This document shows positions 2,245-49,443 of a stretch of DNA of 49,752 nucleotides, piece after piece. The position numbers and the translations under genes were made by a program. Source of the stretch: a virus. Below the pieces are notes generated by a model. It saw nothing but the letters and a program-made list of their open reading frames with translations, searched no databases and was not told where the DNA came from. Location of the stretch: positions 1 through 49,752 of IMG/VR virus record IMGVR_UViG_3300020471_000913. One strand, written 5' to 3'. How positions within the stretch are numbered: the stretch's first letter is position 1; the number at the start of each line of letters is the position of its first letter.

Positions 2245-2696
2245 TGGGAACATTTAAATCAACAAAAACTTATAAATCAACTAAAGGTTTTAGTTGTTGT
2301 TTTAGACAATTTAAAGCAACTTCTCATTGTAGATTTTTACATGGTTATTCATTAGAAATATATTTAGAATTTCAAGCAAAAAATTTAGACGAGCGTAATT
2401 GGGTTGTTGATTATGGTGGTTTAAAAGATTTAGAAAATAAATTTCGAAAATATTTTGATCATAAAACTTTAATTGATATAAACGACCCACATATAGAATG
2501 GTTTGAAGCTGGCCAAGATTTAGGGTTGTTAGATTTAGTTATTTTGGAAGAAGGGGTAGGAAGTGAAATGTTTGCTTTAAAAGTTTATAAATTAACCTCT
2601 GAATGGTTAAATAATAGTGAATATGCTGGACGTTGTGAAATAACAAAAGTAGAAGTAAAAGAACATGATTCAAATTCAGCATTTTATGTGCCATGA
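2244..2696 (+). CDS. queD: 6-carboxytetrahydropterin synthase (QueD), HGY variant
   Basis: QueD turns dihydroneopterin triphosphate into 6-carboxytetrahydropterin, step two of 7-deazaguanine synthesis. The active-site stretch is SHCRFLHGY (27-35): C29 is the likely catalytic cysteine, and H28 and H33 are candidate zinc ligands. The classical enzyme has HGH at this point; here the second His is Tyr (Y35), as I recall for a distinct phage/bacterial branch of the family. H73 in FDHKTL and E140 in VEVKEH match the rest of the active site. At 150 residues it is longer than E. coli QueD (about 120). It overlaps the next gene by 4 bp. Confidence 0.88.
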   Translation: MGTFKSTKTYKSTKGFSCCFRQFKATSHCRFLHGYSLEIYLEFQAKNLDERNWVVDYGGLKDLENKFRKYFDHKTLIDINDPHIEWFEAGQDLGLLDLVILEEGVGSEMFALKVYKLTSEWLNNSEYAGRCEITKVEVKEHDSNSAFYVP

Positions 2697-8529: not shown

Positions 8530-9351
8530 TTAATAACCTCCTAAACGTCTTTGACTGCTACCAGACATTTGTCTGCTTAAACCAACTTGACTGCCAGCCG
8601 CACGACCAGCACTTGCACCTGAGCCACCTGTTTCATAGCCTGATCCACCTCTTCCAATACTTGGGTAACGTTCAGCATAAAACTCTTCAACCTTAGCTAG
8701 TTCCGCTTTATTTGCCTTAGTAATAGCTAAAGCAGAAACGTTAATAGTTTTACTAGCTAATTTTAATTGAGTACCGTTTCTTTCTTCATCAGCTTTCATT
8801 TTTTCGAAACGTGCTTCAACTTCCCAAGCCCAATTCTTTCTAAAACTGTTTCTATGTGCTGCACCTTCCATAGCAACTTGAAATGGGTCTTCTTGACAAT
8901 GTCTCGCCCAAGCATCTTGTAATGCTTGTACTAAGTAATCTGTATAAATTTCTATTTCTATCTTTCTAGCTTTGTTAGCAGTGATTTCCATTTGTCTATA
9001 TATGTCACCTTTTTTATCTCTTATGTATTCTTTTTGATGTTTTTGGTTTCCACTTCTTTCAAACTTAAAAGGAGTAAAAACAATTTTACCGTTATAGTAA
9101 TCAGCAACAGCACCAACAATAATTGAAACTGCTGGGTCAATACGTTTGTAAGGTGTTCCGTATCTAAAAGCAATAACTTCAATTTCTTCCTCAACTACAG
9201 ACATATCGCCTAGTTGTGCTTCTAATTGGTCAAGGTCAATTCCTCGTTTTTCAAGTTGCTGCTGTAATTTAGCTTTTGCTAAATTTGCTTCATGTGGATT
9301 AGTACTTTCAGTTAGTGCTAATAATTTGCCTAAAAATGAAGTGTCTCTCAT
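8530..9351 (-). CDS. DUF2786-domain protein
   Basis: The N-terminus matches the DUF2786 pattern, a short helical domain: KLLALTESTNPHEANLAKAKLQ, about residues 8-30. A larger unnamed region with several aromatic and charged motifs follows, and then a Gly/Ser-rich tail (about 230-273) that looks disordered. Function is unknown; relatives occur in phages and bacteria, sometimes near DNA-processing genes. I chose ATG 9351 with GAGG 9 nt upstream; a TTG at 9366 would add five residues. It is transcribed leftward from its own early-type promoter (9407-9436), unlike the head genes on both sides, and so is probably expressed at a different time. Confidence 0.72.
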   Translation of the reverse strand: MRDTSFLGKLLALTESTNPHEANLAKAKLQQQLEKRGIDLDQLEAQLGDMSVVEEEIEVIAFRYGTPYKRIDPAVSIIVGAVADYYNGKIVFTPFKFERSGNQKHQKEYIRDKKGDIYRQMEITANKARKIEIEIYTDYLVQALQDAWARHCQEDPFQVAMEGAAHRNSFRKNWAWEVEARFEKMKADEERNGTQLKLASKTINVSALAITKANKAELAKVEEFYAERYPSIGRGGSGYETGGSGASAGRAAGSQVGLSRQMSGSSQRRLGGY

Positions 9352-9366
9352 TTTGTAATTCCTCAA

Positions 9367-9436
9367 TGGGGTGAATAGTTAGAGTTATCATTCCCTAACT
9401 ATTGTTAATATAACATATATACTAAGCATACGTCAA
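9367..9436 (-). promoter_or_regulatory. Early-type promoter with hairpin leader (divergent variant)
   Basis: Read leftward, TTGACG (9436-9431), an 18 bp spacer and TATATT (9412-9407) form a sigma70-like promoter. The transcript would start next to a 9-bp hairpin, AATAGTTAG/CTAACTATT (9374-9382 with 9395-9403), followed by CACCCCA (CCCCA at 9371-9367). This matches the layout of the right-end leaders, but a Shine-Dalgarno GAGG is also present before ATG 9351, and the linker is CA rather than ACAA. It is the most divergent member of the family. Confidence 0.6.
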
Positions 9437-9487: not shown

Positions 9488-12163
9488 ATGGCAAAAGTAA
9501 ATGGAACTGAAATAAGTTTGATGCCAACAGATGGTATGAAGGTTGCAGCAAAACGATATAAAAAATGGAAACAAGAGGGCAAAAAAGGTGGTACTGCTGT
9601 AGCAGCAAGACGAGCAACTCAAATACTAAGTGGCTCAGAACTTAGTGTGGATGTAGTAATGCGTATGTTTAGTTTTTTCGCACGGCACGAAGTAGATAAA
9701 AAAGCTGAGGGATTTAATTCTGGCGAAGAAGGTTTCCCATCAAAAGGCAGAGTGGCTTGGGACGCTTGGGGAGGTGACAGTGGTTTTAGTTGGAGTCGGA
9801 AAAAATCTGAGCAAATTAAAAAAGCAAGAGCAAGATTTGATGATACGCTTTTAAATGAGTATGATAAAGACAACATGAGTGAGAATTTTATGGATTCAAC
9901 ATTAGAAAAAAAGCCAGAAAAATTAAAAGCAGCACCTGATGAATTAAAAGTTGGTGATTATGTTTCTTGGAACTCTAGTGGTGGTAGAGCCAGAGGATTA
10001 ATTGAAAAAGTAGAAAGAAATGGGACTATAAACATACCTGACAGCAGTTTTACTGTTGATGGCACAGCAGAAGATCCAGCTGCATTAATTTGTATTTACA
10101 GACCTGCTCCAAGTGGAGGTGGTTTTGTTAAAACAGATAAATTAGTTGGTCATAAGTTTAGTACATTAACTAAAATTGATGATTTACCATTAAATGAAGA
10201 ATATGGTGGCCGTCCATGGCATGATGATGATAAAAAATCAGATAATAAAGAAATACAACAATTTAGGAAAGTAAATTTAAATGAATTAGTTGAAAGAAAT
10301 AAAGGACAATCTTTAGTACAAACAAGAGAACTAAAAGCACAAATTGAATCAGATGGCAATGAATTATTTTTAAGTTTTAGTTCAGAAGAACCAGTTGCAA
10401 GATATTTCGGACAAGAAGTTTTATCGCATGATAAGGGGGCTGCTGACCTATCACGTTTAAACAACGGAACTGCCCCTTTTCTTTGGAATCATAATCGTGA
10501 CGAGGTTCTTGGCGTTGTACAAAATGCAGAAATATCAGATGATAGAAGGGGTTATGCAACTATTAAATGGAGCAGAAATCCTAACGCTACAGAAAAACGT
10601 AATGATGTAGAAGATGGCATTATTTCACAAGTAAGTTTTGCATATCAAATAAATGAAATTGAGGAACGTGGCGATCAGATGGTTGTTACCTCATGGAAAG
10701 CCATGGAAATAAGTTTGGTTTCGGTGCCAGCAGACGCTTCCGTTGGAGTAGGGCGAAGTTTAGAAAATGACGATAAGATTGAAATTAAACAGGTTGCAGA
10801 TTCTCCACCAAAAGAAAATGCAGCCGACCTAGAGCAATCTAGGGAAGCTTTGACGGCTCAAGCTCCGTCATCTAGTCCAACTTTAACTTCCAAAAATATG
10901 GAGCAAACTAAAGAGGCTGCAAGCAAAGCCGTTGAAGCAGAGCAAAAACGCAGCCAAGATATAATCGTTGCTGAAAGAAGCCGTGCAAATGCGGTAACAG
11001 CAATGGGCGAAAAATACAATTGCCCTGATTTAGCACATAAGTTAAATCAAGATGGTGCATCAGTAGAAGATGCTCGCCACGCTATCAACACTTACAGAGA
11101 GGAGAGACTCAACAACGTGGAACAAACACAAATACAAAAAGCCCCAGAAGTAGGCTTAGATCAAAAAGAAATTAAAAGATTTTCTTTCACAAGAGCTTTG
11201 CATGCTTTGTCAAATCCAACAGATAGACAAGCACAAGAAGCTGCTGCTTTTGAAAGAGAAGTCTCTGACGCTACATCTAAAAAGTATGGCAGACCCGCTG
11301 GCGGTATTCTTGTTCCAAACGAAGTGCTTGAGCAAAAAAGAGATTTAACAGTTGGCTCCGCAACTGCTGGAGGTAACTTAGTTGCTACAGAATTATTAGC
11401 TGGTTCATTTATTGAGCAGTTGAAAAATTCTATGGCCATAATGGCTGCCAACCCTTCTATGTTGACAGGACTTGACGGTAACATTTCAATTCCTAGACAA
11501 ACATCAGGAAGCACCGCTTATTGGGTAGGAGAAGGATCAAGTCCAACAGAAAGTAACCTAGCGTTTGACCAAGTGAACATGACTCCTAAGACAATTGGAG
11601 CTTTTGTTGACTACAGCCGCCGTTTACTATTACAAGCATCTGTTGACGTTGAGCAAAGAATCAGAAATGATATTGCACAAAACATAGCTCTTGAATTAGA
11701 TAGAGCAGCTATCTATGGTACAGGTTCTTCAAACCAGCCTTTAGGTATTAAAGATACAACTGGTATCGGTACACAGACTATTACTACTTTTGGTTCATTT
11801 GCTGAATATATAGCAATGGAAACCGACATTGCTGTAGCCAATGCTGAAGTAGCAAATATGTTCTATATCATTAACTCTTCTGCTAGAGGTGCTTTAAAGT
11901 CAACTGAGGTTGCATCAGGCACAGGCAAATTTGTTTTTGAGAACAATCAAATTAATGGTTATAACGCAATTGTCACAAACCAGTTAGCAAACAATGATTG
12001 CCTATTTGGTGACTTTAGTAAATTTACTATTGGTATGTGGTCTGGATTAGACTTAACAGTTGATCCATACGCTGGTGCTACATCAGGTAACGTAAGAGTT
12101 ATAGCTCTACAAGACGTTGACTATGCTGTAACACAGCCCGGAGCGTTCTGTTTTGGTACATAA
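9488..12163 (+). CDS. Prohead protease-scaffold-major capsid polyprotein
   Basis: This single 891-residue protein carries several normally separate parts. About 1-120: a domain with FFARHEVDKK and GFPSKGRVAWDAWGGDSG, seen in front of some phage prohead proteins. About 152-230: a small SH3/Tudor-like domain (DELKVGDYVSWNSSGGRARG) of HVA1/DUF2945 style. About 280-425: HK97-family prohead protease with H335 (LWNHN), S383 (VSFAY) and E407 (MEISLVSVPA). About 465-550: helical, charged scaffold (delta-domain-like). About 553-891: HK97-fold capsid protein (GGNLVATEL, DYSRRLLLQ, LDRAAIYGTGS, QPGAFCFGT). Self-cleavage would release the mature capsid protein, perhaps near 550-610. No clear Shine-Dalgarno site precedes ATG 9488. 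The upstream intergenic stretch has TGATAAT (about 9457), which may be a -10. Confidence 0.88.
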   Translation: MAKVNGTEISLMPTDGMKVAAKRYKKWKQEGKKGGTAVAARRATQILSGSELSVDVVMRMFSFFARHEVDKKAEGFNSGEEGFPSKGRVAWDAWGGDSGFSWSRKKSEQIKKARARFDDTLLNEYDKDNMSENFMDSTLEKKPEKLKAAPDELKVGDYVSWNSSGGRARGLIEKVERNGTINIPDSSFTVDGTAEDPAALICIYRPAPSGGGFVKTDKLVGHKFSTLTKIDDLPLNEEYGGRPWHDDDKKSDNKEIQQFRKVNLNELVERNKGQSLVQTRELKAQIESDGNELFLSFSSEEPVARYFGQEVLSHDKGAADLSRLNNGTAPFLWNHNRDEVLGVVQNAEISDDRRGYATIKWSRNPNATEKRNDVEDGIISQVSFAYQINEIEERGDQMVVTSWKAMEISLVSVPADASVGVGRSLENDDKIEIKQVADSPPKENAADLEQSREALTAQAPSSSPTLTSKNMEQTKEAASKAVEAEQKRSQDIIVAERSRANAVTAMGEKYNCPDLAHKLNQDGASVEDARHAINTYREERLNNVEQTQIQKAPEVGLDQKEIKRFSFTRALHALSNPTDRQAQEAAAFEREVSDATSKKYGRPAGGILVPNEVLEQKRDLTVGSATAGGNLVATELLAGSFIEQLKNSMAIMAANPSMLTGLDGNISIPRQTSGSTAYWVGEGSSPTESNLAFDQVNMTPKTIGAFVDYSRRLLLQASVDVEQRIRNDIAQNIALELDRAAIYGTGSSNQPLGIKDTTGIGTQTITTFGSFAEYIAMETDIAVANAEVANMFYIINSSARGALKSTEVASGTGKFVFENNQINGYNAIVTNQLANNDCLFGDFSKFTIGMWSGLDLTVDPYAGATSGNVRVIALQDVDYAVTQPGAFCFGT

Positions 12164-18266: not shown

Positions 18267-19201
18267 CAATACCAATTGACGAATTACAAAAAACTAATCC
18301 AACAGCAATAATTACATTGTTTGAATTACAGTTAATTGAAGGCTTGCATTATCCAACAGGAAATCCTAGTAATCAAATAACTATTTATAGATGGCACTCA
18401 GGTGTCGCTCAAAATGCAACAGGAGAACTAATATTTGGTGGACAAACTTATAGTCAAATGCCTATAGATGCGGAAGGTTTTGATTATAAAGGTACTAATA
18501 AAGGATCAAATTTACCTAGACCAACTTTGAGAATAAGTAATTTATTATCAACTGTATCAACTATTTTACAAGAAATTAATAACATCACACCTAATAATGA
18601 TTTGATTGGTGCTGTATTAACAAGGAAACGAACCTTTGCCAAATTTATATCTGCGTCAAATACTAGCGGTCAAACTATAACTTATGTTGTTACTGTTCAA
18701 AATGTTGGTGGAGCTAATTATTTTTATATAAATGGTGTTTATAAACCCTCTTTAAGTTTAGTTGGAGGTAATACATATAGATTTATACAGTCAGATTCAT
18801 CTAATACAAATCACCCTTTAATTTTAAAAACTGCTAGTGGTTCAACAATTTTTAATAATCAAAATGGTGGTTTAGTGGCTACTGGAACAGCAGGGATTGA
18901 TAGAATAGTTGTTTATTTAGCAAGTACAAATGCAAGTTATAATGCTGCAAAATATTCATGCTCAGTACATGGCGATAATATGGGAAATACAATAAGTGTT
19001 TCAGCAGCACCAAGTAATCCAGACGAAGATGCTTCAATGCGTTGTGAAGATGATGTATATGTTATTGATAGAAAATCGTCTGAGAACAGGGAAATAGTTG
19101 AATTTGAGTGTGCTGCCAAACTCGACACTCCAACAGTACAATTACCAAGACGTCAGGCTTTGCCAAGAGAATTTCCGGGAATAGGATCATTTCATGCTTA
19201 G
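18263..19201 (+). CDS. Minor tail protein L-like with inserted cupredoxin-like domain
   Basis: The first 130 residues match the lambda gpL family (LRISNLLSTVSTILQEINNI, NDLIGAVLTRKRTFAKFI). Residues about 138-248 form an inserted domain that reads as a cupredoxin: NTYRF, then H184 (TNHPL), and the loop YSCSVHGDNMG with C233, H236 and M240. These four residues have the order of a type-1 copper site. The L-like part resumes with MRCEDDVYVIDRKSSENREI and ends soon after; the lambda C-terminal Fe-S module is missing. The same insert type occurs in the large fibre at 29050-34302. It overlaps the K-like gene by 8 bp. Confidence 0.8.
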   Translation: MTIPIDELQKTNPTAIITLFELQLIEGLHYPTGNPSNQITIYRWHSGVAQNATGELIFGGQTYSQMPIDAEGFDYKGTNKGSNLPRPTLRISNLLSTVSTILQEINNITPNNDLIGAVLTRKRTFAKFISASNTSGQTITYVVTVQNVGGANYFYINGVYKPSLSLVGGNTYRFIQSDSSNTNHPLILKTASGSTIFNNQNGGLVATGTAGIDRIVVYLASTNASYNAAKYSCSVHGDNMGNTISVSAAPSNPDEDASMRCEDDVYVIDRKSSENREIVEFECAAKLDTPTVQLPRRQALPREFPGIGSFHA

Positions 19202-32000: not shown

Positions 32001-34302
32001 AGATGCTACTGATACTGCTAGTGGAGCAATAACATTTACAAGTCATCAATTACATTTATCAGGTCATTATTATCAAAAATTTTATTCTGGAACTACAAAC
32101 TATATACATCTTTATCCAAATGGACATAGTGGAAATGCAAGTGTAACTAATATAAGAGCTTACAATGGATCTGGGTCTGATGTATTTAAAATAACTGGTG
32201 GTTCTTCTACAGGATTAAAATGGAGAGGTTATACAATATGGACAGCAGAAAATGATGGCTCTGGAAGTGGGTTAGATGCTGACACTTTAGACGGACAGCA
32301 AGGTTCTTATTACCTTAATTACAATAATTTATCTAATAAACCAAGCATACCAGCAGCAGGCGTACCCGCATCAGGCGGTACATTTACAGGAGATGTCACA
32401 TTCTCAGGTGGTGCTAGTGCTATAACAATAACTGGCTCTGATATAGGTTCTAGCAGTTCTTCTGGCTGGACAGGAGATCCGGGTTCATCAAGGTTAAAGA
32501 TACAAGCACACTCAAGTCGTTGGTATATAGTTGCAAACAGTAGTGCTAATAGAATTGTTCAATTTAGATTAAATAGTAGTGATAAAACTTGGATAGCAAC
32601 AGATGGTCAAATTTATCATGGTTCTAGTGGATCTGGTGACAAGTATTGGAGACAAGGAAATGACGGCAGTGGTTCTGGGCTTGATGCTGACACTTTAGAT
32701 GGGCAACAAGGTTCTTATTATTCGAATTATAATAATTTGTCTAATAAGCCAACTATCCCAACAAACAACAACCAGTTAACTAATGGGGCTGGCTATATTA
32801 CTTCAGCAAATGGCGGTAATGCTGCGACTTTAGACGGTATTGATTCAAGTCAGTTTTTAAGGTCTGATACATCAGATCAAATGAATGGGGAATTAAATGT
32901 TACTCGTAATAGTGGAACTACAGGTGGTTCAGCACCTAGTTACAGCAATGCAAATATTGAATTACAAACTTCAAGTAATCATGTTCCAGCTATAGGTTTT
33001 CATAGGGGTGGATACAGTGCTACAACTATATATGAATATGATGGGGAGTTATATGTTAACCCTTGGACTGCAAGAGATCAAACTGGAAAACTTTTAACCT
33101 TAAATAATTTAAAAACTGTTGATGGTGCTGGAAGCGGACTTGATGCGGATACTTTAGATGGTTATTCAACAAATGATGGTGCTAGTAATAACACCATTGT
33201 AAGAAGAACTGCAAGTGGATATATATTTGCGAATTATTTTAATACAACAGCTAATGATACTGGAAATGGTATTGATTGTAAGTTTTATGCTTCTGAGGAT
33301 AATTACATCAGATATATAGATTTAAGCAGTATGCGAGCAGTAATGAATGTTTCTGCTAGATCAACTGCATTTGCTGGAAGGGAAAATCAAACAACTGACT
33401 TAAATTATTGGATTGGTTCTGCTGGTTGGGGTGCTAATAATTTTGATTCAACAGTTTGGGATTATGGTTCTTGTTTCTTTGATGTATGGAGTAATCCTAG
33501 TGGTCAACCAAGTGGGACATCACATTGGACAGGTGTTCAAGCAATGCACTATACAAATGGTTCGGCTAGGTATGGTATGCGTATTACCTGTGGTGCTGGT
33601 AATACTGGACTTGCATATATACAAGGTAGGTGGAATACGACAACTTATGGTTGGCATAAGCTTTGGAATGAAAACAATGATGGAAGTGGCAGTGGTCTTG
33701 ACGCTGATCTTTGGGACGGTAACCAGTTTTCCTCATACCTTAATCAAGCAGTATTAACTACAAGTAATCCAACATTTAACCAAATCTATGCAAACGATTG
33801 GTTTAGGGTCAATGGGGCTGACGGTATTTATTGGCAAAGTTATGGTGGTGGTTTGCAGATGACAGATACCACATGGGTTAGAGTTTATAACAGTAAAAAA
33901 CTATATGTAGCAAATGAAATAGCAGCAACAAGTAATATAACAGCATATTATTCTGACGAAAGATTAAAAGAAAAACTCGGAGATATTGATAATGCTTTAT
34001 TTAAAGTAAATCAAATAAAAACTTTTTACTATAAAGAGAATGATTTAGCTAAAAAGTTTGGTTTTAATAAACCTGATAAACAAGTTGGGGTATCAGCACA
34101 GTCTGTTGAAAAGGTTTTGCCAGAGGTTGTTTCTTTAGCACCTTTTGATTACGAAACTGCTGAAGACGGCACAATTTCTAGTAAATCAGGAGAAAACTAT
34201 AAAACTGTTGATTATGAAAAACTTGTACCTTTACTAATTGAATCTATAAAAGAACTTACAAATAAAGTAAAAGCACTAGAAAATAAATGCAATGTTGAGT
34301 AA
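29050..34302 (+). CDS. Large modular tail fibre with cupredoxin-like and S74 domains
   Basis: This 1750-residue fibre starts with a fibre-attachment motif (LLHKRGTTKPNASDLLVGEI, about 5-24). Residues about 55-172 are a cupredoxin-like domain with NTYRFDQSDSSNSNHPL (H111) and YQCGFHGYMG (C158, H161, M164). A long repeat region follows (LDGIDSSQFLRSD, NNQLTNGAGYITSA, YNNLSNKPTIP, GSGLDADTLDGQQG). The C-terminus is an S74 chaperone: S1635 and K1640 in YSDERLKEKL, so self-cleavage would remove the last 116 residues, which end in a short coiled coil. A good ribosome site (GGAG) precedes the ATG. It probably binds the host surface. Confidence 0.88.
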   Translation: MPNTLLHKRGTTKPNASDLLVGEIAINTAEGKLFTENDSGYIWEAGELLGTFSSSTITYTVTVASKTSAHRYNGSGSNSGYKINGVFSPFLNLTPGNTYRFDQSDSSNSNHPLKFYLEANKTTLYSTGVTINGTAGQSGAYTEITITDTTPIILHYQCGFHGYMGNSVLTNSKTVNYNDLQNKPSLFSGNYNDLSNKPSLFSGSYNDLSNKPTIPTLTSQLTNDAGFITTGGGGLTDGDKGDIVVSNSGDTLSIDSGVIDNANIASNAAIAGSKISPNFGTQDVTSRYVYAKDIFLGDVSPELRFTDSDNTPDYHIRLNSGILVFKDITNSVERMSIQADGHIDIAGNLDVGAGLDVTGDLTITHNIPKISLIDTDNDDDFEIKNQNGVFTIRDATNNSNRMTIASNGQFDFEGNVDCNYGLDVTGNITVSGTVDGVDIYARDTLFGGLTSSSGVLSNGVTATTQSAGDNSTKIATTAYTDTAISNLVDSSPSALNTLNELAAALGDDANFSTTVTNSIATKMPLAGGTFTGNVLGSSGVNIKLDSNIGTAGNTAYASMAGYLEFTNDYSDTPRGANKIRLQNDNNWLAGFGISANSHDIYTGGNFNFYKSNSTTSFTFLMGLNSSGDLSIAGTVDGRDVAADGSKLDGIATGATNVTNNNQLTNGAGYITSADGGNAATLDGIDSSQFVRSDADDTLNGQYIINDSADEKLILQGSTNPILRFKEGTTNKAWLQWHGTNGYVVLGNNEDNTGIRLDNQLKVTRDGFATNHQVWDAGNDGAGSGLDSDKLDGQQGSYYLNYNNLSNKPTIPTNNNQLTNGAGYITSAALAGASDGGNAALLDGIDSSQFLRSDQDDTTSGAITLKLLKFVGQGGNSNNTAQNYGLYQESGAWSNPYPDLVIAYHTGIKIGGLNSYGGTRFYNDAPERAGATEIFSVGNGDNHVRVVNNLYIGGNLAWHAGNDGSGSGLDADLLDGFGSGQFLRSDATDTASGAITFTSHQLHLSGHYYQKFYSGTTNYIHLYPNGHSGNASVTNIRAYNGSGSDVFKITGGSSTGLKWRGYTIWTAENDGSGSGLDADTLDGQQGSYYLNYNNLSNKPSIPAAGVPASGGTFTGDVTFSGGASAITITGSDIGSSSSSGWTGDPGSSRLKIQAHSSRWYIVANSSANRIVQFRLNSSDKTWIATDGQIYHGSSGSGDKYWRQGNDGSGSGLDADTLDGQQGSYYSNYNNLSNKPTIPTNNNQLTNGAGYITSANGGNAATLDGIDSSQFLRSDTSDQMNGELNVTRNSGTTGGSAPSYSNANIELQTSSNHVPAIGFHRGGYSATTIYEYDGELYVNPWTARDQTGKLLTLNNLKTVDGAGSGLDADTLDGYSTNDGASNNTIVRRTASGYIFANYFNTTANDTGNGIDCKFYASEDNYIRYIDLSSMRAVMNVSARSTAFAGRENQTTDLNYWIGSAGWGANNFDSTVWDYGSCFFDVWSNPSGQPSGTSHWTGVQAMHYTNGSARYGMRITCGAGNTGLAYIQGRWNTTTYGWHKLWNENNDGSGSGLDADLWDGNQFSSYLNQAVLTTSNPTFNQIYANDWFRVNGADGIYWQSYGGGLQMTDTTWVRVYNSKKLYVANEIAATSNITAYYSDERLKEKLGDIDNALFKVNQIKTFYYKENDLAKKFGFNKPDKQVGVSAQSVEKVLPEVVSLAPFDYETAEDGTISSKSGENYKTVDYEKLVPLLIESIKELTNKVKALENKCNVE
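31019..33735 (+). repeat. Repeated fibre modules
   Basis: Within the large fibre, several modules recur: NNQLTNGAGYITSA (near 31025, 31490 and 32765), LDGIDSSQF plus RSD (near 31090, 31570 and 32830), and GSGLDADTLDGQQG or close variants (near 31390, 31940, 32265, 32670, 33130 and 33690). Codons differ between copies, so the repeats are conserved at protein level and not fresh DNA duplications. Related modules appear in the fibre at 25467. Confidence 0.7.
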
Positions 34303-40383: not shown

Positions 40384-40743
40384 TTAAAAATTATAGTCAT
40401 AAAATGCTCTCCAGCCTTCCCCTAATGTAGTTGGGTTTGAGCAATGATCACCACACCTGCACCATCTACCAGTATCTCTAAAACCAAACTTACTAACTGA
40501 ACCCTCTAGGTTTCTTGTTATGTCATATTTTAATGATCTTTGGTTTGTACAATGACCAGCGAATCCGCCGGGAATAATGTTTGGTCTTTCGCCTTCAGCT
40601 AGTTTGTAATTGTCCATTTGTATCCAAACAAATTTCTTTGTTCTTTTAATAACTGTACAAGGCTTGATGTCTGAGTAATAAAGAACGTGTGCTTTGTCAC
40701 CTACTTGGGGATCAAAGTTAAGAGTTACGTTTCCGTTAAGCAT
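40384..40743 (-). CDS. Hypothetical early protein with Cys/His cluster
   Basis: This 119-residue protein contains an SH3-like start (DPQVGDKAHVLYYSDIKPCT, IKRTKKFVWIQMDNY) and a C-terminal RWCRCGDHCSNP that may bind a metal. I place the start at ATG 40743, after the leader motif, because the longer frame from 40770 would translate the leader hairpin itself (its ATG lies in the hairpin loop). It is the first gene after a hairpin/ACAACCCC leader. Function unknown. Confidence 0.62.
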   Translation of the reverse strand: MLNGNVTLNFDPQVGDKAHVLYYSDIKPCTVIKRTKKFVWIQMDNYKLAEGERPNIIPGGFAGHCTNQRSLKYDITRNLEGSVSKFGFRDTGRWCRCGDHCSNPTTLGEGWRAFYDYNF

Positions 40744-40817
40744 TTTTTTTATGGGGTTGTGGGCGGTCATTCACCGCCCTTATGTTTAGTATAGTATATA
40801 TATTATAAATATGTCAA
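40744..40817 (-). promoter_or_regulatory. Early promoter with hairpin/ACAACCCC leader
   Basis: Leftward: TTGACA (40817-40812), 18 bp, TATACT (40793-40788). The transcript starts at a 7-bp hairpin GGGCGGT/ACCGCCC (pairing 40779-40773 with 40767-40761), then ACAACCCCA (CCCCA at 40756-40752) and an A-rich spacer to ATG 40743. There is no Shine-Dalgarno site. Confidence 0.8.
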
Positions 40818-41353
40818 CTGTATCTTATAATTCTTTGTTCCCAATCTGCTAATTCACCTTTTTTTTCACGCTCTTCCCTATCTTTTAATCCGCTTTTTAT
40901 CTCAGGTGAATACATAGTTAAATGCCAACTAAACTCAGGCTGTTTTAAAATTTCATCTGCTTCAAGTGTTATTAACTTTAAAAAGAACGTATATCTTTCC
41001 AAAGCATGATCCCACTTATTAATAAGCCTGTTCATTTCAAACTCCCTAAATTCATCTGTTGTTTTAAATGGCTCAGTTACATTAAAAAGTCTTTCACATT
41101 CGCTGGGGTTTCTTTTTAAAAACCTATTACGCTGGAACATTCTTTGCTCATAATCATATAAAGAAAATTTACAAGGCTTGCCAACTGTAATGCCATTTTC
41201 AATTTTTAAACCTACTTCTAACTGCCAAAAGGTTTTTGGTAAATCGTAAAATCCACCCCCTAAACCGTTTGGAACTAAGATGTTTTTGTAGTGGTTTGCC
41301 AAAGTGTGAAGCTCCTTATTTAGAAGCTTCACTTGTATTTTATGGTCGCTCAT
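40814..41353 (-). CDS. Hypothetical early protein
   Basis: This 179-residue protein is rich in Leu, Lys, Glu and Phe, predicted mostly helical (KIQVKLLNKELHTLANHYKN, TDEFREFEMNRLINKWDHAL). No family is recognised. It has a strong ribosome site (GGAGG, 8 nt spacing) and overlaps the previous gene by 4 bp, so it depends on the same leftward early promoter. Its end overlaps the neighbouring promoter. Confidence 0.65.
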   Translation of the reverse strand: MSDHKIQVKLLNKELHTLANHYKNILVPNGLGGGFYDLPKTFWQLEVGLKIENGITVGKPCKFSLYDYEQRMFQRNRFLKRNPSECERLFNVTEPFKTTDEFREFEMNRLINKWDHALERYTFFLKLITLEADEILKQPEFSWHLTMYSPEIKSGLKDREEREKKGELADWEQRIIRYS

Positions 41354-41682: not shown

Positions 41683-41754
41683 TGTCTTTGGGGGTTGTGG
41701 AAGTCATCTTTGCTTCCTTATTTATAATATATCAAATATACTAAACATATGCAA
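41683..41754 (-). promoter_or_regulatory. Early promoter with hairpin/ACAACCCC leader
   Basis: Leftward: TTGCAT (41754-41749), 17 bp, TATATT (41731-41726), then hairpin GGAAG/CTTCC (41717-41713 with 41703-41699), ACAACCCCCA and ATG 41682. The stem is not G-rich/C-rich like the others, so pairing rather than sequence is conserved. Confidence 0.78.
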
Positions 41755-43871: not shown

Positions 43872-44336
43872 ATGAAAATTAACAAACAAATAAAATTTTA
43901 CGTTTATTTGAAAAGCAAATTAGGTCGTAATGCTGATCTTTTAAACTTTCTTTTTTTACAAGAACTTGGAACTGGCAAATACGTTTTGCCAGAACTTTGT
44001 TCACAGCTAGAAGTGTCTCGCAGTAATTTTAATGCTAGTCTTTTACGTTTAAAGAAACATGGCTTTATTTGCTATAGCGGTCATTCTTCAAACGGCATCC
44101 TTTTATGGTGGATTAAAAAAAATATTGATGATGAACCAAGCTACAAACAAGATGCTCCAAGATGGGTAATAGTAAACAAAGAAACAAGGGAATTAGAAGA
44201 AATTATTTATGGAGATGAAGATGTGTGGGCAATGAGAAATGGATATAACGCTGGTACTTTTAAAAACTTTTTATTTGGTCGATATAAATGTTTCGCTGAA
44301 AAATATGAACTTGTTAAAAGTATTTCCCAAGACTAA
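43872..44336 (+). CDS. Winged-helix-like DNA-binding protein
   Basis: The first 80 residues of this 154-residue protein read as a winged helix: LPELCSQLEVSRSNFNASLL and RLKKHGFICYSGHSSNGILL (recognition helix then wing). The rest (about 90-154) is unassigned. It starts 3 nt after ssb, so it is probably co-regulated with the recombination genes. It could be a regulator or a replication-initiation factor. It is one candidate to bind the TGTWAC palindromes, without direct evidence. Confidence 0.62.
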   Translation: MKINKQIKFYVYLKSKLGRNADLLNFLFLQELGTGKYVLPELCSQLEVSRSNFNASLLRLKKHGFICYSGHSSNGILLWWIKKNIDDEPSYKQDAPRWVIVNKETRELEEIIYGDEDVWAMRNGYNAGTFKNFLFGRYKCFAEKYELVKSISQD

Positions 44337-44998: not shown

Positions 44999-45035
44999 TA
45001 TATGGCCTATTTTTTTAATTAGGCTATAATATATA

Positions 45036-45145
45036 AAAGCGGGTAGTCGTTTCCGTAAGGCACGACACTTGCGATTGGAAACATGGGGTGTTTCTAATCG
45101 AATATACCAGCAAGCATCGAAGCCCGCTTTAATTTCACACGGACA
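45036..45145 (+). ncRNA. Freestanding structured RNA with UGGGG loop
   Basis: TATAAT (45025-45030) would start transcription at about 45037, exactly at stem P1 AAAGCGGG (45036-45043) / CCCGCTTT (45123-45130). Inside are P2, GTCGT/ACGAC (45046-45050, 45062-45066), capped by CC-GTAA-GG with a GNRA tetraloop, and P3, a 12-bp hairpin CGATTGGAAACA (45072-45083) / TGTTTCTAATCG (45089-45100), with loop TGGGG (45084-45088). CTTG (45068-45071) can pair with CAAG (45111-45114) beneath P3. A strong terminator follows. There is no long reading frame. The loop is complementary to the CCCCA of the early leaders. A tRNA, hammerhead or known riboswitch did not fit. Confidence 0.75.
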
Positions 45146-45178
45146 AAAGTTCCTTTTTAAAATAAGGAACTTTTTTTT
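45146..45178 (+). terminator. Intrinsic terminator of the structured RNA
   Basis: AAAGTTCCTT (45146-45155) and AAGGAACTTT (45164-45173) form a perfect 10-bp hairpin with an 8-nt loop, followed by T5 (eight consecutive T from 45171). It ends the small RNA and insulates it from the next early promoter, which begins 10 nt later. Confidence 0.92.
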
Positions 45179-45187
45179 ATTTAACAG

Positions 45188-45244
45188 TTGACATATATAG
45201 AATATATATGTTATATTATATATATAGATACAAAACACCCCAAA
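45188..45244 (+). promoter_or_regulatory. Early promoter with short CCCCA leader (no hairpin)
   Basis: Consensus TTGACA (45188-45193), 18 bp, TATATT (45212-45217). The leader is only about 20 nt and has ACACCCCA (CCCCA at 45238-45242) 2 nt before the start ATG 45245, but no hairpin. ACACCCCA is complementary over 8 nt to TGGGGTGT of the adjacent small RNA. Confidence 0.75.
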
Positions 45245-45574
45245 ATGAACCAAACAGAAGCACTACAAACAGCAGAAACAATTTTCCAGCAGTTTGGCGG
45301 ACAACAAAAATTAAAGTTTTTCGTAGGAGCTAACACTTTTACTTATCACAACCGTCCAGAAGTTGAGCAAGTTGACGCAAGTTTTAAGTTTAAAATGTGT
45401 CGTACAGCTAATCTTGTTAAAGTTACTTATCACAGATGTCCAGATGTTTATACTGTTAAGTTCTTTAAATTAGGCAAAGCAAGTATTAAAGAAGTTAGCA
45501 AGTTTGAGAACATTTACTTTGATCAACTTATAGAACTATTTGAAAAAGAAACTGGCTTATACTTGCACTTTTAA
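45245..45574 (+). CDS. Hypothetical early protein
   Basis: This 109-residue protein (QTAETIFQQFGGQQKLKFFV, then YTVKFFKLGKASIKEVSKFE) has an alpha/beta look. Small proteins with QTLGGNKF- or GGQQKLKFF-like cores that read out YHNRPE are common early phage proteins of unknown function. I chose ATG 45245, after the CCCCA leader; an upstream start at 45188 would translate the promoter. A second promoter lies within its 3' end. Confidence 0.65.
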   Translation: MNQTEALQTAETIFQQFGGQQKLKFFVGANTFTYHNRPEVEQVDASFKFKMCRTANLVKVTYHRCPDVYTVKFFKLGKASIKEVSKFENIYFDQLIELFEKETGLYLHF

Positions 45575-45634
45575 AGTATAAGCGATAAACTAAAAACACG
45601 GAGGGGTAGATACCCTCCACAACCCCAAAAGGAA
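45563..45634 (+). promoter_or_regulatory. Early promoter with hairpin/ACAACCCC leader
   Basis: TTGCAC (45563-45568), 17 bp, TAAACT (45586-45591), with the promoter inside the end of the previous gene. Hairpin GGAGGG/CCCTCC (45600-45605, 45613-45618), ACAACCCCA (CCCCA at 45623-45627), then AAAGGAA to ATG 45635. This leader has a weak AAGGA in the spacer. Confidence 0.75.
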
Positions 45635-45778
45635 ATGACTAAATTTTTACAAAACATTAGCCTCTGGCTAGTAGTTGGTTCAATAACCAGCATCGCTTTA
45701 AATAGCACCCTTTATGATATGACCGTTGCCGATTGTAAGGCTGGCGTTCAATTAGCTTGCTTGGAGGTAAACAAATGA
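45635..45778 (+). CDS. 47-residue membrane or exported protein
   Basis: MTKFLQNISLWLVVGSITSI forms an N-terminal hydrophobic helix, followed by a short polar part with two Cys (DCKAGVQLAC). It is the first gene behind a hairpin/ACAACCCC leader. Its stop overlaps the next ATG by 4 bp, and the next gene has GGAGG inside this one. Confidence 0.6.
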   Translation: MTKFLQNISLWLVVGSITSIALNSTLYDMTVADCKAGVQLACLEVNK

Positions 45779-45972
45779 AAAAACAAGACGGTTGGAATTA
45801 TTCTGTTAAAACAACCAGACAAGCATTTTGGAAAATGGTTGAACTAGGAGAGGAAGCAGACATTTTTGATCTTGTGTTTAGCGAATTAACAGTTGAACAA
45901 TGCAAAAGCATTAATAAATGTATTGATGCAAAAATTTGGAAAGAAATCTTTTTACAGGAGCATGAGAAATGA
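45775..45972 (+). CDS. Hypothetical early protein
   Basis: This 65-residue protein (KKQDGWNYSVKTTRQAFWKM, LTVEQCKSINKCIDAKIWKE) is helical and charged. ATG 45775 is chosen because GGAGG stands 9 nt upstream; an earlier in-frame ATG at 45757 lacks one. Second gene of a coupled early operon. Function unknown. Confidence 0.62.
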   Translation: MKKQDGWNYSVKTTRQAFWKMVELGEEADIFDLVFSELTVEQCKSINKCIDAKIWKEIFLQEHEK

Positions 45973-46289
45973 TGTATGACAACTTCCCCTGCTATGGAAA
46001 CGGTGTATGGGTCTTTGGACACTTAAAAAACCAGCCAACAGAATTTTTATTTTATGCAGAGTATGGCGATCTTTATTTAAATAATGGTAACCGAGCATGG
46101 AATAGAACTGATTACGAGCGAGCCGTCAAACAAAAGTGCCGAAAACTAAAAAAAGATAAACCTTATACATGGTTTAGTTTTGACGATCTTGGCGATATGC
46201 ACAGGAGAGTAAGAGGTACTAAATGGGAAACAAATGCTAATGAAATTAAAAATTTTCCGTACAAACTATATGAGGAGAAATGCAAATGA
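45969..46289 (+). CDS. Hypothetical early protein
   Basis: This 106-residue protein (YDNFPCYGNGVWVFGHLKNQ, EFLFYAEYGDLYLNNGNRAW, KDKPYTWFSFDDLGDMHRRV) is rich in aromatic residues and probably alpha/beta. Coupled to its neighbours by 4-bp overlaps on both sides, with GGAG upstream. No family recognised. Confidence 0.62.
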   Translation: MMYDNFPCYGNGVWVFGHLKNQPTEFLFYAEYGDLYLNNGNRAWNRTDYERAVKQKCRKLKKDKPYTWFSFDDLGDMHRRVRGTKWETNANEIKNFPYKLYEEKCK

Positions 46290-46447
46290 TTAATAAAAAT
46301 GATATAAGCATTGCCATATCAGTGCTTAACCATAAAATGTCCATACTTAGCAGAGAATTTAGATCTGATGATGGTGGCTGGAAATGTGAGGGTGCTTATA
46401 TTAAATGGCACTTTTTTAAAAAAGCTAGGGATCAATTAAGGAGGTAA
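46286..46447 (+). CDS. 53-residue hypothetical protein
   Basis: MINKNDISIAISVLNHKMSI is followed by a charged helix and WKCEGAYIKWHFFKKARDQL. GAGGAG precedes the ATG, which overlaps the previous stop codon. It continues the coupled early operon. Function unknown. Confidence 0.58.
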   Translation: MINKNDISIAISVLNHKMSILSREFRSDDGGWKCEGAYIKWHFFKKARDQLRR

Positions 46448-46449
46448 TT

Positions 46450-46671
46450 ATGAGAGAACCACATTTACAACTATCTGTGGCGGACTGTCAAAACTTACTT
46501 TATTACTTAGAGCCACATGAAAAAACTGTAGGCGTTACACCTTATAATCCGCAGCCATATGATTCAATTAAGAAATTATGTGATTATTGCCGACAGCGAA
46601 TAAACAATAGCAAAGCAGCTAGTAGTGACGGATATTTATTTGGGGATTATTATGAGGAAAAATTGTTATGA
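46450..46671 (+). CDS. 73-residue hypothetical protein
   Basis: LQLSVADCQNLLYYLEPHEK begins a helical protein with KLCDYCRQRINNSKAASSDG; the C-x2-C pair is the only motif visible. AGGAGG is 6 nt upstream of ATG. Overlaps the next gene by 4 bp. Function unknown. Confidence 0.6.
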   Translation: MREPHLQLSVADCQNLLYYLEPHEKTVGVTPYNPQPYDSIKKLCDYCRQRINNSKAASSDGYLFGDYYEEKLL

Positions 46672-46805
46672 CTAAAATTTCTCACAAACACGGCAAGGGT
46701 TATTGCGTTGAAGATAAAGGACAATTTTATTATTTTAAAACTATTCAAGAAGCTATGGCTAAAGGTTTGGAGATTGATAATAAAAAGAATGTAAATAAAA
46801 AGTAA
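46668..46805 (+). CDS. 45-residue hypothetical protein
   Basis: This small basic protein contains ISHKHGKGYCVEDKGQFYYF and a helical AMAKGLEIDNKKN end. It is the last gene of the coupled early operon that begins at 45635. Its stop lies in GTAACA, a half of the TGTWAC palindrome, just before the next early promoter. Confidence 0.52.
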   Translation: MTKISHKHGKGYCVEDKGQFYYFKTIQEAMAKGLEIDNKKNVNKK

Positions 46806-46812
46806 CAAAGGA

Positions 46813-46888
46813 TTGCGTATATATAATATATTTGATATATTATAAATATAGAGGGAAACAGATAAACCCTCACAACCCCCAAAAACAA
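46813..46888 (+). promoter_or_regulatory. Early promoter with hairpin/ACAACCCC leader
   Basis: TTGCGT (46813-46818), 17 bp, TATATT (46836-46841). Hairpin GAGGG/CCCTC (46851-46855, 46867-46871), ACAACCCCCA and A-rich spacer to ATG 46889. A half operator GTAACA sits 5 nt upstream of the -35. Confidence 0.8.
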
Positions 46889-47158
46889 ATGGCTTACGAT
46901 TCAAAAAAAGTTGAAACAGCACAAGCACTATTCGCAGCAGCAATAGACTTAATGAAGCAAAACTACAACGCACCAGCAGAAGAAATTCCTACAAGCATGG
47001 CCATCGCTGATTTAGCTGCTAAAGCTATTCAGTGGGATTGTATAGCAGCACAGGACATAGCTTACAATGTATTAGAGGAGGTAAACGAGCATACATTAGC
47101 TAAAGATTTTAAAGGCATGGCTGAAGTACACAACGCAACATTTGACGAGGAGGATTAA
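46889..47158 (+). CDS. Hypothetical early protein
   Basis: This 89-residue acidic, helical protein (SKKVETAQALFAAAIDLMKQ, MAIADLAAKAIQWDCIAAQD) is the first gene behind a hairpin/ACAACCCC leader. I used ATG 46889; an in-frame start at 46832 would translate the promoter and hairpin. It overlaps the next gene by 1 bp. Function unknown. Confidence 0.65.
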   Translation: MAYDSKKVETAQALFAAAIDLMKQNYNAPAEEIPTSMAIADLAAKAIQWDCIAAQDIAYNVLEEVNEHTLAKDFKGMAEVHNATFDEED

Positions 47159-47430
47159 TGGAAAACCTAATAAAACATAAAGCCGACTTCAGTGACGGCT
47201 TTAAAGACGGATACTTAAGAGCAGAGCAGGGAAAACCTTGTAGGTGGATTGAACATATAGATCAAACTGATGGATTTAAAAGCATTAACCCTGTTTACAC
47301 TCTTGCTTATGAAGGTGGCTACAATTTTCAAAAAATGGGAAAAAATTTAACAGACGCTACTGTTGAAGATTTATTTTTACAAATGGTTAGACACTTTTAT
47401 TCCCGACATCATAAAGATAATAATAAATAA
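47158..47430 (+). CDS. Hypothetical early protein
   Basis: This 90-residue protein (HKADFSDGFKDGYLRAEQGK, YTLAYEGGYNFQKMG) has repeated aromatic and Gly residues typical of small phage early proteins. GAGGAGG is upstream, 5 nt from the ATG. It closes a two-gene early operon. Function unknown. Confidence 0.62.
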   Translation: MENLIKHKADFSDGFKDGYLRAEQGKPCRWIEHIDQTDGFKSINPVYTLAYEGGYNFQKMGKNLTDATVEDLFLQMVRHFYSRHHKDNNK

Positions 47431-47436
47431 TTTAAT

Positions 47437-47454
47437 TGTAACTTTTCCTTTACA
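47437..47454 (+). promoter_or_regulatory. Operator-like palindrome
   Basis: TGTAAC (47437-47442), six bases, TTTACA (47449-47454): one mismatch from the perfect TGTAAC-N6-GTTACA found at 41816. It ends 4 nt before the -35 of the next early promoter. Confidence 0.45.
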
Positions 47455-47458
47455 ATAC

Positions 47459-47526
47459 TTGCGTATGTTTAGTATAAGATATATATTATAAATAAGGGGA
47501 GAGAAACCCCACAACCCCAAAAAGAA
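47459..47526 (+). promoter_or_regulatory. Early promoter with hairpin/ACAACCCC leader
   Basis: TTGCGT (47459-47464), 17 bp, TATATT (47482-47487). Hairpin GGGG/CCCC (47496-47499, 47507-47510), ACAACCCCA, A-rich spacer with AAGAA, ATG 47527. There is no Shine-Dalgarno site outside the stem. Confidence 0.78.
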
Positions 47527-47730
47527 ATGACACTTTTAAGAAACGCAGGCAAAAGACAATCACTTGATTCAATTAATGATTGCTTCGCAGTAATGGTTTT
47601 AACTGGAGAGTATGTTTCAAGAGAACTTGTTTATAACAAGCTTGAGTACAACTGCTACGCAAAGCACGTTTGCGAAAAAGCAACAGACATGATCATGGCT
47701 GACTTAAAACTATTAGGAAACAGAGGTTAA
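47527..47730 (+). CDS. 67-residue hypothetical early protein
   Basis: TLLRNAGKRQSLDSINDCFA is followed by a helical region (ELVYNKLEYNCYAKHVCEKA). It is the first gene behind a leader; the next gene follows after 5 nt. Function unknown. Confidence 0.62.
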   Translation: MTLLRNAGKRQSLDSINDCFAVMVLTGEYVSRELVYNKLEYNCYAKHVCEKATDMIMADLKLLGNRG

Positions 47731-47735
47731 ACAAA

Positions 47736-48011
47736 ATGAGAACAACACCAAGAAGCACAAAAATTATCGGGGGCATATTTAAAGCCCTCCAAGCTGGAGT
47801 AATTTTCAACAGAGGAAAACTTATAGCAAGATTTACTTCTGGCGGTTACAGCTACGCATTAGCAACAAGGTACGCTGATTACTTAATTGCTTCCAATACA
47901 GATTGCAACCACTGGAGCAGGTGGACAAAAATAGGAGACAGTAGTTACTACTACACCCCAACACAAAGAGCAATGATTGCTCGAACAATTCCAAACCAAG
48001 GAGGTAATTAA
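47736..48011 (+). CDS. Hypothetical early protein
   Basis: This 91-residue basic protein (TTPRSTKIIGGIFKALQAGV, RFTSGGYSYALATRYADYLI) is rich in Tyr, Ala and Arg. The ribosome site is AGG about 9 nt upstream. It sits in a three-gene early operon; no known family. Confidence 0.62.
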   Translation: MRTTPRSTKIIGGIFKALQAGVIFNRGKLIARFTSGGYSYALATRYADYLIASNTDCNHWSRWTKIGDSSYYYTPTQRAMIARTIPNQGGN

Positions 48012-48012
48012 A

Positions 48013-48240
48013 ATGAAAACAGTATGGGCAATGAACGCTAAAGGTTTTGACCATTGTGGTAATTGTTTCTTGGCTAAAGTGCTTGAGGACAGCACAATGC
48101 ACAGACCAGCAAGAAAGGGTTATGTATGGTTGGAACAAGTATCAACACCAAAAGCACCAGTAGTTGGCGATGCTTGGGTTACTGAATGGAAAATAATTCC
48201 AGATAATTATTTGACGGATCAATATATCTTAGGATTATAA
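48013..48240 (+). CDS. 75-residue hypothetical early protein
   Basis: MKTVWAMNAKGFDHCGNCFL leads into a short alpha/beta sequence; the C-x2-C is the only motif. AGGAGG is 8 nt upstream of ATG 48013, so I prefer it to an in-frame ATG at 47977. Last gene of its early operon. Function unknown. Confidence 0.62.
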   Translation: MKTVWAMNAKGFDHCGNCFLAKVLEDSTMHRPARKGYVWLEQVSTPKAPVVGDAWVTEWKIIPDNYLTDQYILGL

Positions 48241-48241
48241 A

Positions 48242-48259
48242 TGTTACGGAAAAGTAACA
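48242..48259 (+). promoter_or_regulatory. Operator palindrome upstream of an early promoter
   Basis: TGTTAC-GGAAAA-GTAACA is a perfect inverted repeat, 5 nt upstream of the -35 at 48265. An identical copy lies at 48917-48934 in the same position relative to its promoter. Confidence 0.6.
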
Positions 48260-48264
48260 AAGGA

Positions 48265-48339
48265 TTGCATTTATAAAGTATAAGATGTATATTATAAATA
48301 CAGGGGACGAGAGATCGACCCCACAACCCCAAAAAACAA
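48265..48339 (+). promoter_or_regulatory. Early promoter with hairpin/ACAACCCC leader
   Basis: TTGCAT (48265-48270), 17 bp, TATATT (48288-48293). Hairpin GGGG-A-CGA/TCG-A-CCCC (48303-48310, 48315-48322) is capped by GAGA, a GNRA tetraloop, followed by ACAACCCCA, an A-rich spacer and ATG 48340. This is the longest and best stem in the family. Confidence 0.82.
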
Positions 48340-48654
48340 ATGGACATTTCAGACAGAAACTTAGAAAGAGCAAATTCACTAGCAACAGCTATTAAGGCAA
48401 TGGAATATGCTTTAGAAAAATCAGAGATTTACCAAAGACTTGAACTACTTAAAGAGCAACAAAGAATGCTTCCTAACAATCAAGGCTTCACAATGGGTAA
48501 ATATAACGTTGTTGGAGAAAAACCACAATGGACAGAGGAAGAGCTAGCAGAAAGCAAAAAAGAGACTGATCTTCAAAACGAAAAAGATTGGCAAAAATAC
48601 GAAATTGAATATGCTGCATTTTGCAAAGTACATGGCTTAGAAACTTGGAACTAA
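48340..48654 (+). CDS. Hypothetical early protein
   Basis: This 104-residue acidic, helical protein (RANSLATAIKAMEYALEKSE, LELLKEQQRMLPNNQ) is probably coiled-coil in part and ends with a Tyr/Glu-rich region. First and only gene behind its leader. Function unknown. Confidence 0.62.
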   Translation: MDISDRNLERANSLATAIKAMEYALEKSEIYQRLELLKEQQRMLPNNQGFTMGKYNVVGEKPQWTEEELAESKKETDLQNEKDWQKYEIEYAAFCKVHGLETWN

Positions 48655-48702
48655 GCCTTTTGTTGGTTGACTAGGTTTTATTGTTTCATTAAAGGTTAAG
48701 TA

Positions 48703-48774
48703 ATGCTCATAGCAGCCGCCTTACCGCCAACAACTTATAAACATAACCCCAAAAAAAAATGTCAAACGATTTAA
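48703..48774 (+). CDS. Possible 23-residue upstream reading frame
   Basis: ATG 48703 has AAGG with suitable spacing and opens a short frame (MLIAAALPPTTYKHNPKKKC then QTI) that ends inside the next gene, overlapping its start in another frame. TTGTTGG/CCAACAA (near 48661 and 48727) can pair around it. It could be a leader peptide controlling the 57-residue gene, or a chance frame. Confidence 0.22.
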   Translation: MLIAAALPPTTYKHNPKKKCQTI

Positions 48775-48932
48775 GACTAGCAAGAAAAACTTATAGTAAA
48801 TATGAGATTAATGCCATGGATTCAATTTATAAAGCAATAGATAAATTTGAAGCTTTAGGAATTACAACCGAGAATCTTTATAGGGCTTTAAATCAAATTC
48901 CCGGAAGTTTTGAAGATGTTACGGAAAAGTAA
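48759..48932 (+). CDS. 57-residue hypothetical early protein
   Basis: A helical protein (SNDLRLARKTYSKYEINAMD, AIDKFEALGITTENLYRALN). Its ATG follows ATAACCCCAAAAAAAA, a degenerate form of the leader motif without a G-rich hairpin. The stop codon lies inside the operator palindrome at 48917-48934, so the end of this gene and the next promoter region have evolved together. Confidence 0.58.
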   Translation: MSNDLRLARKTYSKYEINAMDSIYKAIDKFEALGITTENLYRALNQIPGSFEDVTEK

Positions 48933-48934
48933 CA
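48917..48934 (+). promoter_or_regulatory. Operator palindrome (second copy)
   Basis: TGTTAC-GGAAAA-GTAACA, identical to 48242-48259, 5 nt upstream of the -35 at 48940. It overlaps the last codons of the preceding gene. Confidence 0.6.
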
Positions 48935-48939
48935 TAAGA

Positions 48940-49009
48940 TAACGTATATATAATATATATGTTATATTATATATATACAGAGGAGAGAGACCTCACAACC
49001 CCTAAAAAA
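48940..49009 (+). promoter_or_regulatory. Early promoter with hairpin/ACAACCCC leader
   Basis: TAACGT (48940-48945, weak -35), 17 bp, TATATT (48963-48968). Hairpin GAGG/CCTC (48980-48983, 48991-48994), ACAACCCCT, A-rich spacer, ATG 49010. This is the only member with T instead of A after the C-tract. Confidence 0.76.
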
Positions 49010-49159
49010 ATGTCACACATCAGATACTGGCAACAACAAGTTAACTTATTCGAAAACAGAATAAGAGAATACGAAGATGACGGAAGAACAGTTCCAGAAG
49101 GTCTTTTTGATAAATTAGCTTTAGCTAAAGCTTCATTAAAAATTTGGAGGGCAGCATAA
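49010..49159 (+). CDS. 49-residue hypothetical early protein
   Basis: SHIRYWQQQVNLFENRIREY begins a helical, partly coiled-coil protein ending in KASLKIWRAA. I used ATG 49010, after the leader; the upstream ATG 48959 would translate the -10 box and hairpin. It overlaps the next ATG by 1 bp. Function unknown. Confidence 0.6.
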   Translation: MSHIRYWQQQVNLFENRIREYEDDGRTVPEGLFDKLALAKASLKIWRAA

Positions 49160-49356
49160 TGTCAGACTTACAAAAGGCAAAAACAAACTATGAATTAGCA
49201 ATACAAATTTTTGCTAATAATCCAACAGACGAAAACGCTAATTCTTATAGGTTGCAGCAAAAAATTTATGATCATGTTAGATATGGCAAAATGACTTTAG
49301 CTAAAGCAAACACTACAGAAAAATGCCATTTTTATCAAACAGATTTTTGTAACTAA
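49159..49356 (+). CDS. 65-residue hypothetical early protein
   Basis: SDLQKAKTNYELAIQIFANN opens a helical protein with a C-terminal TTEKCHFYQTDFCN. GGAGG is 8 nt upstream of ATG 49159; the ATG at 49144 is less well placed. Second gene of its early operon. Function unknown. Confidence 0.6.
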   Translation: MSDLQKAKTNYELAIQIFANNPTDENANSYRLQQKIYDHVRYGKMTLAKANTTEKCHFYQTDFCN

Positions 49357-49371
49357 AAGTTAACAAATATA

Positions 49372-49443
49372 TTGCATATATATAATATATTTGTTATACT
49401 ATAAATATACAGAGGAGAGAAACCTCACAACCCCAAAAGAACA
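49372..49443 (+). promoter_or_regulatory. Early promoter with hairpin/ACAACCCC leader
   Basis: TTGCAT (49372-49377), 17 bp, TATACT (49395-49400). Hairpin GAGG/CCTC (49412-49415, 49423-49426), ACAACCCCA (CCCCA at 49431-49435), spacer AAAGAACA, ATG 49444. It is nearly the same as the leader at 48940 but has a better -35. Confidence 0.82.

Follow-up and report, generated by a model that had tools for sequence, protein, structure and literature searches.

We identified a stand-alone structured RNA of about 140 nt in the genome of an uncultivated phage, together with six homologues, and the shared covarying structure marks these seven members as a proposed new RNA family of picocyanobacterial phages. 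The window, the whole stretch of DNA analyzed here, is an uncultivated phage record of 49,752 nucleotides with about 34% GC. The Synechococcus phages S-CBS1 and S-CBS3 have the terminase and capsid proteins nearest to its own, which makes a picocyanobacterium the probable host. Judging from the sequence, we lean towards the view that the RNA is a phage-encoded, trans-acting small RNA whose loop would pair with early-gene leaders of the same phage and turn these genes down. We infer both the expression of the RNA and the contact between loop and leaders.

The predicted fold of the RNA is a three-way junction with the following parts:

45025 to 45030, plus strand: -10 box TATAAT of the RNA's own promoter, in a region shared with the relative L007, with no TTGACA at -35
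45036 to 45178, plus strand: stand-alone structured RNA of about 140 nt (fold z -5.0; six homologues with covariation)
45036 to 45044, plus strand: 5' strand of P0, pairing with 45122 to 45130 (fold and covariation)
45046 to 45066, plus strand: P1 hairpin with a GUAA tetraloop and the tip CCGUAAGG, the same in all seven aligned members
45068 to 45072 with 45110 to 45114, plus strand: P2 stem (fold)
45073 to 45099, plus strand: P3 hairpin, varying among members, with the stem 45073 to 45083 paired with 45089 to 45099
45084 to 45088, plus strand: P3 loop UGGGG, the proposed leader-recognition site and the best leader-complementary site of the RNA
45115 to 45121, plus strand: junction strand CAUCGAA, nearly invariant in the seven-member alignment
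45145 to 45178, plus strand: intrinsic terminator (1 found against 0.3 expected in shuffles)

The 140-nt fold has a minimum free energy of -46 kcal/mol (z -5.0), and none of 200 shuffles was equally stable. An earlier note on this DNA had described a -10 box, a three-stem RNA beginning at the expected transcript start and a strong terminator, and all three were recovered: P0 begins 6 nt 3' of TATAAT, and the terminator lies at 45145-45178. The same note gave P3 as a 12-bp hairpin exposing TGGGG. The loop is indeed UGGGG, but the stem has 11 bp plus a possible U-G closing pair. The TTGACA promoter of the next gene starts at 45188. At the -35 distance of the RNA's own promoter, both marine-type members carry ATGGSC, while the early promoters there have TTGACA. 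As the RNA promoter lacks the early-type TTGACA, the RNA may be timed differently from the early genes.

The six homologues were found on three viral contigs and on three phage-like contigs in picocyanobacterial metagenome-assembled genomes (MAGs). In L007, the closest relative, the RNA lies at the same place, 3' of the 89-aa gene that also precedes it in the window; its promoter region is conserved, it has its own terminator, and the gene downstream differs from that in the window. Thus both the window and L007 hold a promoter and a terminator belonging to the RNA itself; a terminator was not evident after the RNA in G005, G007 and G006. The L007 terminator (7610-7630) contains ACCCC, the complement of that member's own GGGGU loop sequence. 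A two-member covariance model of the window and L007 led to a third member, L022 (record G007), in which the RNA itself is 72% GC. The fourth, L011 (record G005), was spotted by synteny and then scored 31.6 bits, where the best chance match reached 9.5. A four-member covariance model yielded three more (G006, G151 and G170), from genomes of a Synechococcaceae MAG's family. On the contigs of G151 and G170 there are phage-like genes, for example those for Mu Gam-like, KilA-N and tail proteins. Homologues beyond L007 were reached only via protein neighbours and covariance models; DNA pattern scans of the viral contigs, with and without GGGG, returned the contig of L007 alone plus unrelated chance matches, and no RNA homologue was found in S-CBS1, S-CBS3, S-LBS1, S-2L or Pan5. 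One match in a host genome (L067, 23.7 bits) was rejected because it sits in an apparent metalloprotease coding sequence. The possibility of a core host gene was likewise rejected, as the RNA occurred in 3 of 400 family genomes, twice on phage-like contigs and once on a short contig.

Covariation was assessed in the seven-member alignment, where 92.4% of pair cells hold and both partners have changed in 17 of 27 pairs, counts that are flattered because this alignment was fitted to the structure. None of 500 shuffles was as good, and no slid register came close. Between the window and L007 alone, aligned by sequence, there were nine double-sided changes, spread over all four helices. The fold stability and this covariation bear out the earlier description of a stand-alone structured RNA.

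The compact three-way junction, with its conserved junction bases and the terminator after it, resembles an aptamer with its expression platform, and in G006 an open frame lies directly after the RNA. The RNA might then be a cis-acting riboswitch or attenuator of the next gene, a reading we regard as very improbable. The gene downstream varies by lineage, and a terminator and further promoter-like sequence intervene in four of the seven members (the window, L007, G151 and G170), which disfavours a cis-acting switch; a consistent type of downstream gene on the same transcript was not found. The aptamer-like part and the terminator share no predicted base pairing, and Rfam riboswitch matches numbered zero. 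The differing downstream genes also speak against a purely cis role of the RNA.

Several other features of these genomes were observed. The gene directly 5' of the RNA on G151:C433 (L065, 874-1479) encodes an NrdR-type zinc ribbon together with an RNA polymerase alpha C-terminal domain, and its product is a possible phage transcription modifier. Close to the RNA, the window (43872-44336), L007, G005 and G007 all encode a 154-aa protein. The L022 copy, used as query, has a distant homologue in Cyanophage S-2L (18403-18843; 31.5% identity, E 1e-12), a phage with 2-aminoadenine DNA. The left arm of the window (725-2696) carries queuosine-type genes (queuine tRNA-ribosyltransferase and QueD-like), which perhaps serve DNA or tRNA base modification. 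At 9488-12163, a single reading frame of 891 aa combines the major capsid protein with a region for head maturation protease. On the phage-like contig G170:C45, a run of 14 G lies just 5' of an ATG (about 33826-33839), either an assembly artefact or a variable tract.

Conservation was distributed unevenly along the RNA. All seven members share the P1 tip CCGUAAGG without change, and their junction strands near AUCGAAG are almost identical, while the stem of P3 differs in sequence and length. Despite these differing stems, GGGG is found in the P3 loop of five of the seven: UGGGG in the window, UUGGGGGUU inside a larger loop in L007, CCUGGGGU in G007 and G006, and AAAGGGGU in G005. The loop sequence is altered in G151 (CCUUCAGA) and G170 (UUGUAGGUG). 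The minimum-energy folds of G170 and G006 depart partly from the model structure. A constant scaffold bearing a variable recognition hairpin would be the natural reading of this pattern. The altered loops of G151 and G170 have a possible alternative partner, a 5-nt stretch in the junction of the same RNA, which counts against leader pairing; self-pairing of the P3 loop was rejected as a general feature because it is not conserved elsewhere.

The highest conservation is thus in P1 and the junction and not in P3, as it would be if the RNA were a structural or protein-binding RNA, with a host or phage protein as ligand for example, in which the scaffold does the work and the match to the leaders is incidental. 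Contigs on which the RNA was not seen (L008-L010 and L019, which are fragments) have CCCC leaders as well. We consider this explanation unlikely, as it leaves unaccounted for the retention of GGGG in P3 of five members with differing stems, the placement of the best leader-complementary site within P3's loop, and the 7 nt over which the altered loop of G151 matches a leader, as described below.

The putative targets were defined by a motif shared among early leaders. In the window, CCCC stands just 5' of the start codon in 11 promoter-proximal leaders, ten of which read CCCCA and one CCCCU (48999), in agreement with the earlier statement that all leaders but one carry CCCCA:

45235 to 45242, plus strand: ACACCCCA in the next-door leader, an 8-nt complement of UGGGGUGU; gene 45245-45574
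45604 to 45634, plus strand: leader with a 5' hairpin and then ACAACCCCA; gene 45635
46876 to 46880, plus strand: CCCCC(A); gene 46889
47515 to 47518, plus strand: CCCC(A); gene 47527
48327 to 48330, plus strand: CCCC(A); gene 48340
48747 to 48750, plus strand: CCCC(A); gene 48759
48999 to 49002, plus strand: CCCC(U), the sole exception; gene 49010
49431 to 49434, plus strand: CCCC(A); gene 49444
41690 to 41694, minus strand: CCCCC(A); leftward gene ending at 41350
40753 to 40756, minus strand: CCCC(AU), a 7-nt complement; leftward gene 40384-40743
9368 to 9371, minus strand: CACCCCAU, an 8-nt complement; leftward gene 8530-9366 (or start at 9351)

Of the 22 right-arm genes, 11 have CCCC no more than 25 nt from the start, counting recT, whose CCCC is inside the exo coding sequence, against 2 of 42 others, one of which has the 9371 leader (Fisher P 5e-5). 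The background is 2.7% of random 25-mers. Most of the CCCC motifs in the window are predicted to be unpaired. A typical early leader consists of a promoter, a 5' hairpin of varying stem, ACAACCCC, an A-rich run and ATG. The motif is kept in relatives (L007-L010 and L019), and most early leaders of G005 and G007 (70% GC) have a hairpin followed by ACCCC, so that (A)CCCC leaders span relatives from 34% to more than 70% GC. All four GGGG-loop members with testable leaders have (A)CCCC 3' of the 5' hairpin in early leaders.

The early leaders are without a clear Shine-Dalgarno sequence, and initiation at this module (45604-49440; leftward 41690 and 40753) may be independent of one. CCCC could accordingly be a translation element, and the leaders might share it for such a reason while the loop pairs with host mRNAs or small RNAs; phage small RNAs that act on host RNAs, such as DicF and AgvB, are known (PMC12197685). 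We judge a host-directed role of this kind to be quite improbable. The loop complements the leader motif and does not copy it, so it would be no sponge for factors that read the leaders, and in G151 loop and leader differ together.

To locate the complementarity within the RNA, we compared every k-mer of the whole RNA with complements in the leaders of its own genome, in six genomes. The P3 loop was the best leader-complementary site in five of the six, in one of them (G005) tied. The k-mer and P figures are guides and not proofs, because the sets of leaders are small, with those of G005 and G007 compiled by hand; with this in mind, at k=5 the complement of GGGGU was present in all 11 leaders of the window and that of UGGGG in 6/6 of L007, and the P3 loop matched 3/4 leaders in G007, 4/6 in G005 (tied with another segment) and 2/3 in G151, where it was the sole site reaching 6 or 7 nt. 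In G170 the P3 loop was tied with or behind another segment.

The two members with altered loops were analyzed individually. For G151, leaders were chosen by promoter, hairpin and ATG alone. Its next-door leader, [CTCGGCAgcgaTGCCGGG]TGATCTGAAGCCCG, contains UCUGAAG, which complements the loop CUUCAGA over 7 nt (shuffle P about 0.002), and a second leader matches the loop over 5 nt. This suggested that loop and leader have changed together in G151. For G170, two automatic leader candidates (17550 and 33842) were excluded because they are unlike the module. Here CACCUA in the next-door leader faces UAGGUG in the loop over 6 nt, a weak and unconvincing match given that P is about 0.08 and that the leader still carries CCCC.

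Matches longer than the core were less consistent. The extended matches reported earlier for the leftward leaders are present, with 8 nt at the 9371 leader and 7 nt at the 40756 leader. The 8-nt match claimed for the next-door leader was also found (45235-45242), but it is not conserved: L007 has the same ACACCCCA leader and a loop changed to UUGGGGGUU, so this closest relative keeps only the core of the complementarity. In G005 and G007, the leader directly after the RNA is without ACCCC. The case is further weakened by a core of about 5-6 nt in a tight loop and by the small number of homologues. Covariation of loop and leader motif, which the earlier note had put forward as a check, gave a divided picture: the GGGG/CCCC core is kept in the four members with testable leaders and GGGG in five of seven loops, and G151 is in step, whereas G170 is ambiguous and the next-door leaders of G005 and G007 do not fit. 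Taken from these sequence comparisons, pairing of the RNA with leaders is likely.

In the antisense mechanism that we propose, a conserved scaffold of P0, P1 and the junction, which may also serve to bind a protein, would present P3, and the P3 loop would pair with a short single-stranded motif between the 5' hairpin of the leader and the start codon. The partners in most members would be a GGGGU loop and an (A)CCCC leader motif. Pairing a few nt 5' of the start codon would hamper 30S binding, and the early genes would be lowered together as the RNA accumulates. Repression would probably be the outcome of pairing, rather than activation. Because GGGG is held in a tight 5-nt loop, pairing of the full loop would require the top of the P3 stem to open. 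A more tentative idea, to which we give slightly less than an even chance, is that an exchangeable loop on a conserved scaffold addresses the whole early gene set, with loop and leaders coevolving as a lineage-specific key and lock.

The RNA was compared with described families and systems. The whole window gave no match to Rfam 15 at the gathering threshold. A permissive Rfam search of the locus gave chance matches alone, the best being PyrR with 21.7 bits against a cut-off of 54, and PyrR and the other weak matches were rejected as such. The Rfam covariance model of C4 gave no match at any threshold, and literature searches found no description of this RNA.

The timing of phage genes is usually credited to proteins, namely repressors, sigma factors and RegA-type translational repressors. 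In RegA-type repression in T4-like phages, one regulator acts on the translation starts of many early genes. The likeness to the present case lies in one regulator for many early starts, and the difference is that RegA is a protein, whereas here an RNA would act. To our knowledge, phage-run post-transcriptional control is little known in cyanobacterial phages. Yfr1 is a cyanobacterial small RNA (PMC2190773). The RNA described here resembles it as a small RNA with a short, conserved and unpaired motif, but Yfr1 is a host gene with another motif and fold, and the RNA here has no Rfam match. CfrI of cyanophage S-PM2 is an antisense non-coding RNA (PMC12197685) and resembles our RNA in being a cyanophage non-coding RNA; it differs in being about 225 nt long, cis-antisense at psbA and from a myovirus, and so works on another principle. 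The sar RNA of phage P22 pairs at the translation start of a phage gene (PMC12197685). It is likewise a phage small RNA at the start of a phage gene, but with a single target, long complementarity and an unrelated sequence. In phages P1 and P7, the C4 antisense RNA pairs with the leader of the phage's ant mRNA, whose translation it blocks (PMC12197685). C4 is thus also a small phage RNA acting on a leader of its own phage, with one target and another fold. The RNA described here would act like the sar and c4 antisense RNAs, but belongs to no described Rfam family. If the proposed pairing is true, a single RNA loop regulates about a dozen of the phage's own transcripts through a repeated early-leader motif, and the family offers a defined new RNA whose loop-leader code is simple and open to testing, in phages of cyanobacteria that matter ecologically. 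Both sar and c4 are described as acting on one target each (PMC12197685), whereas here one loop fits about eleven leaders.
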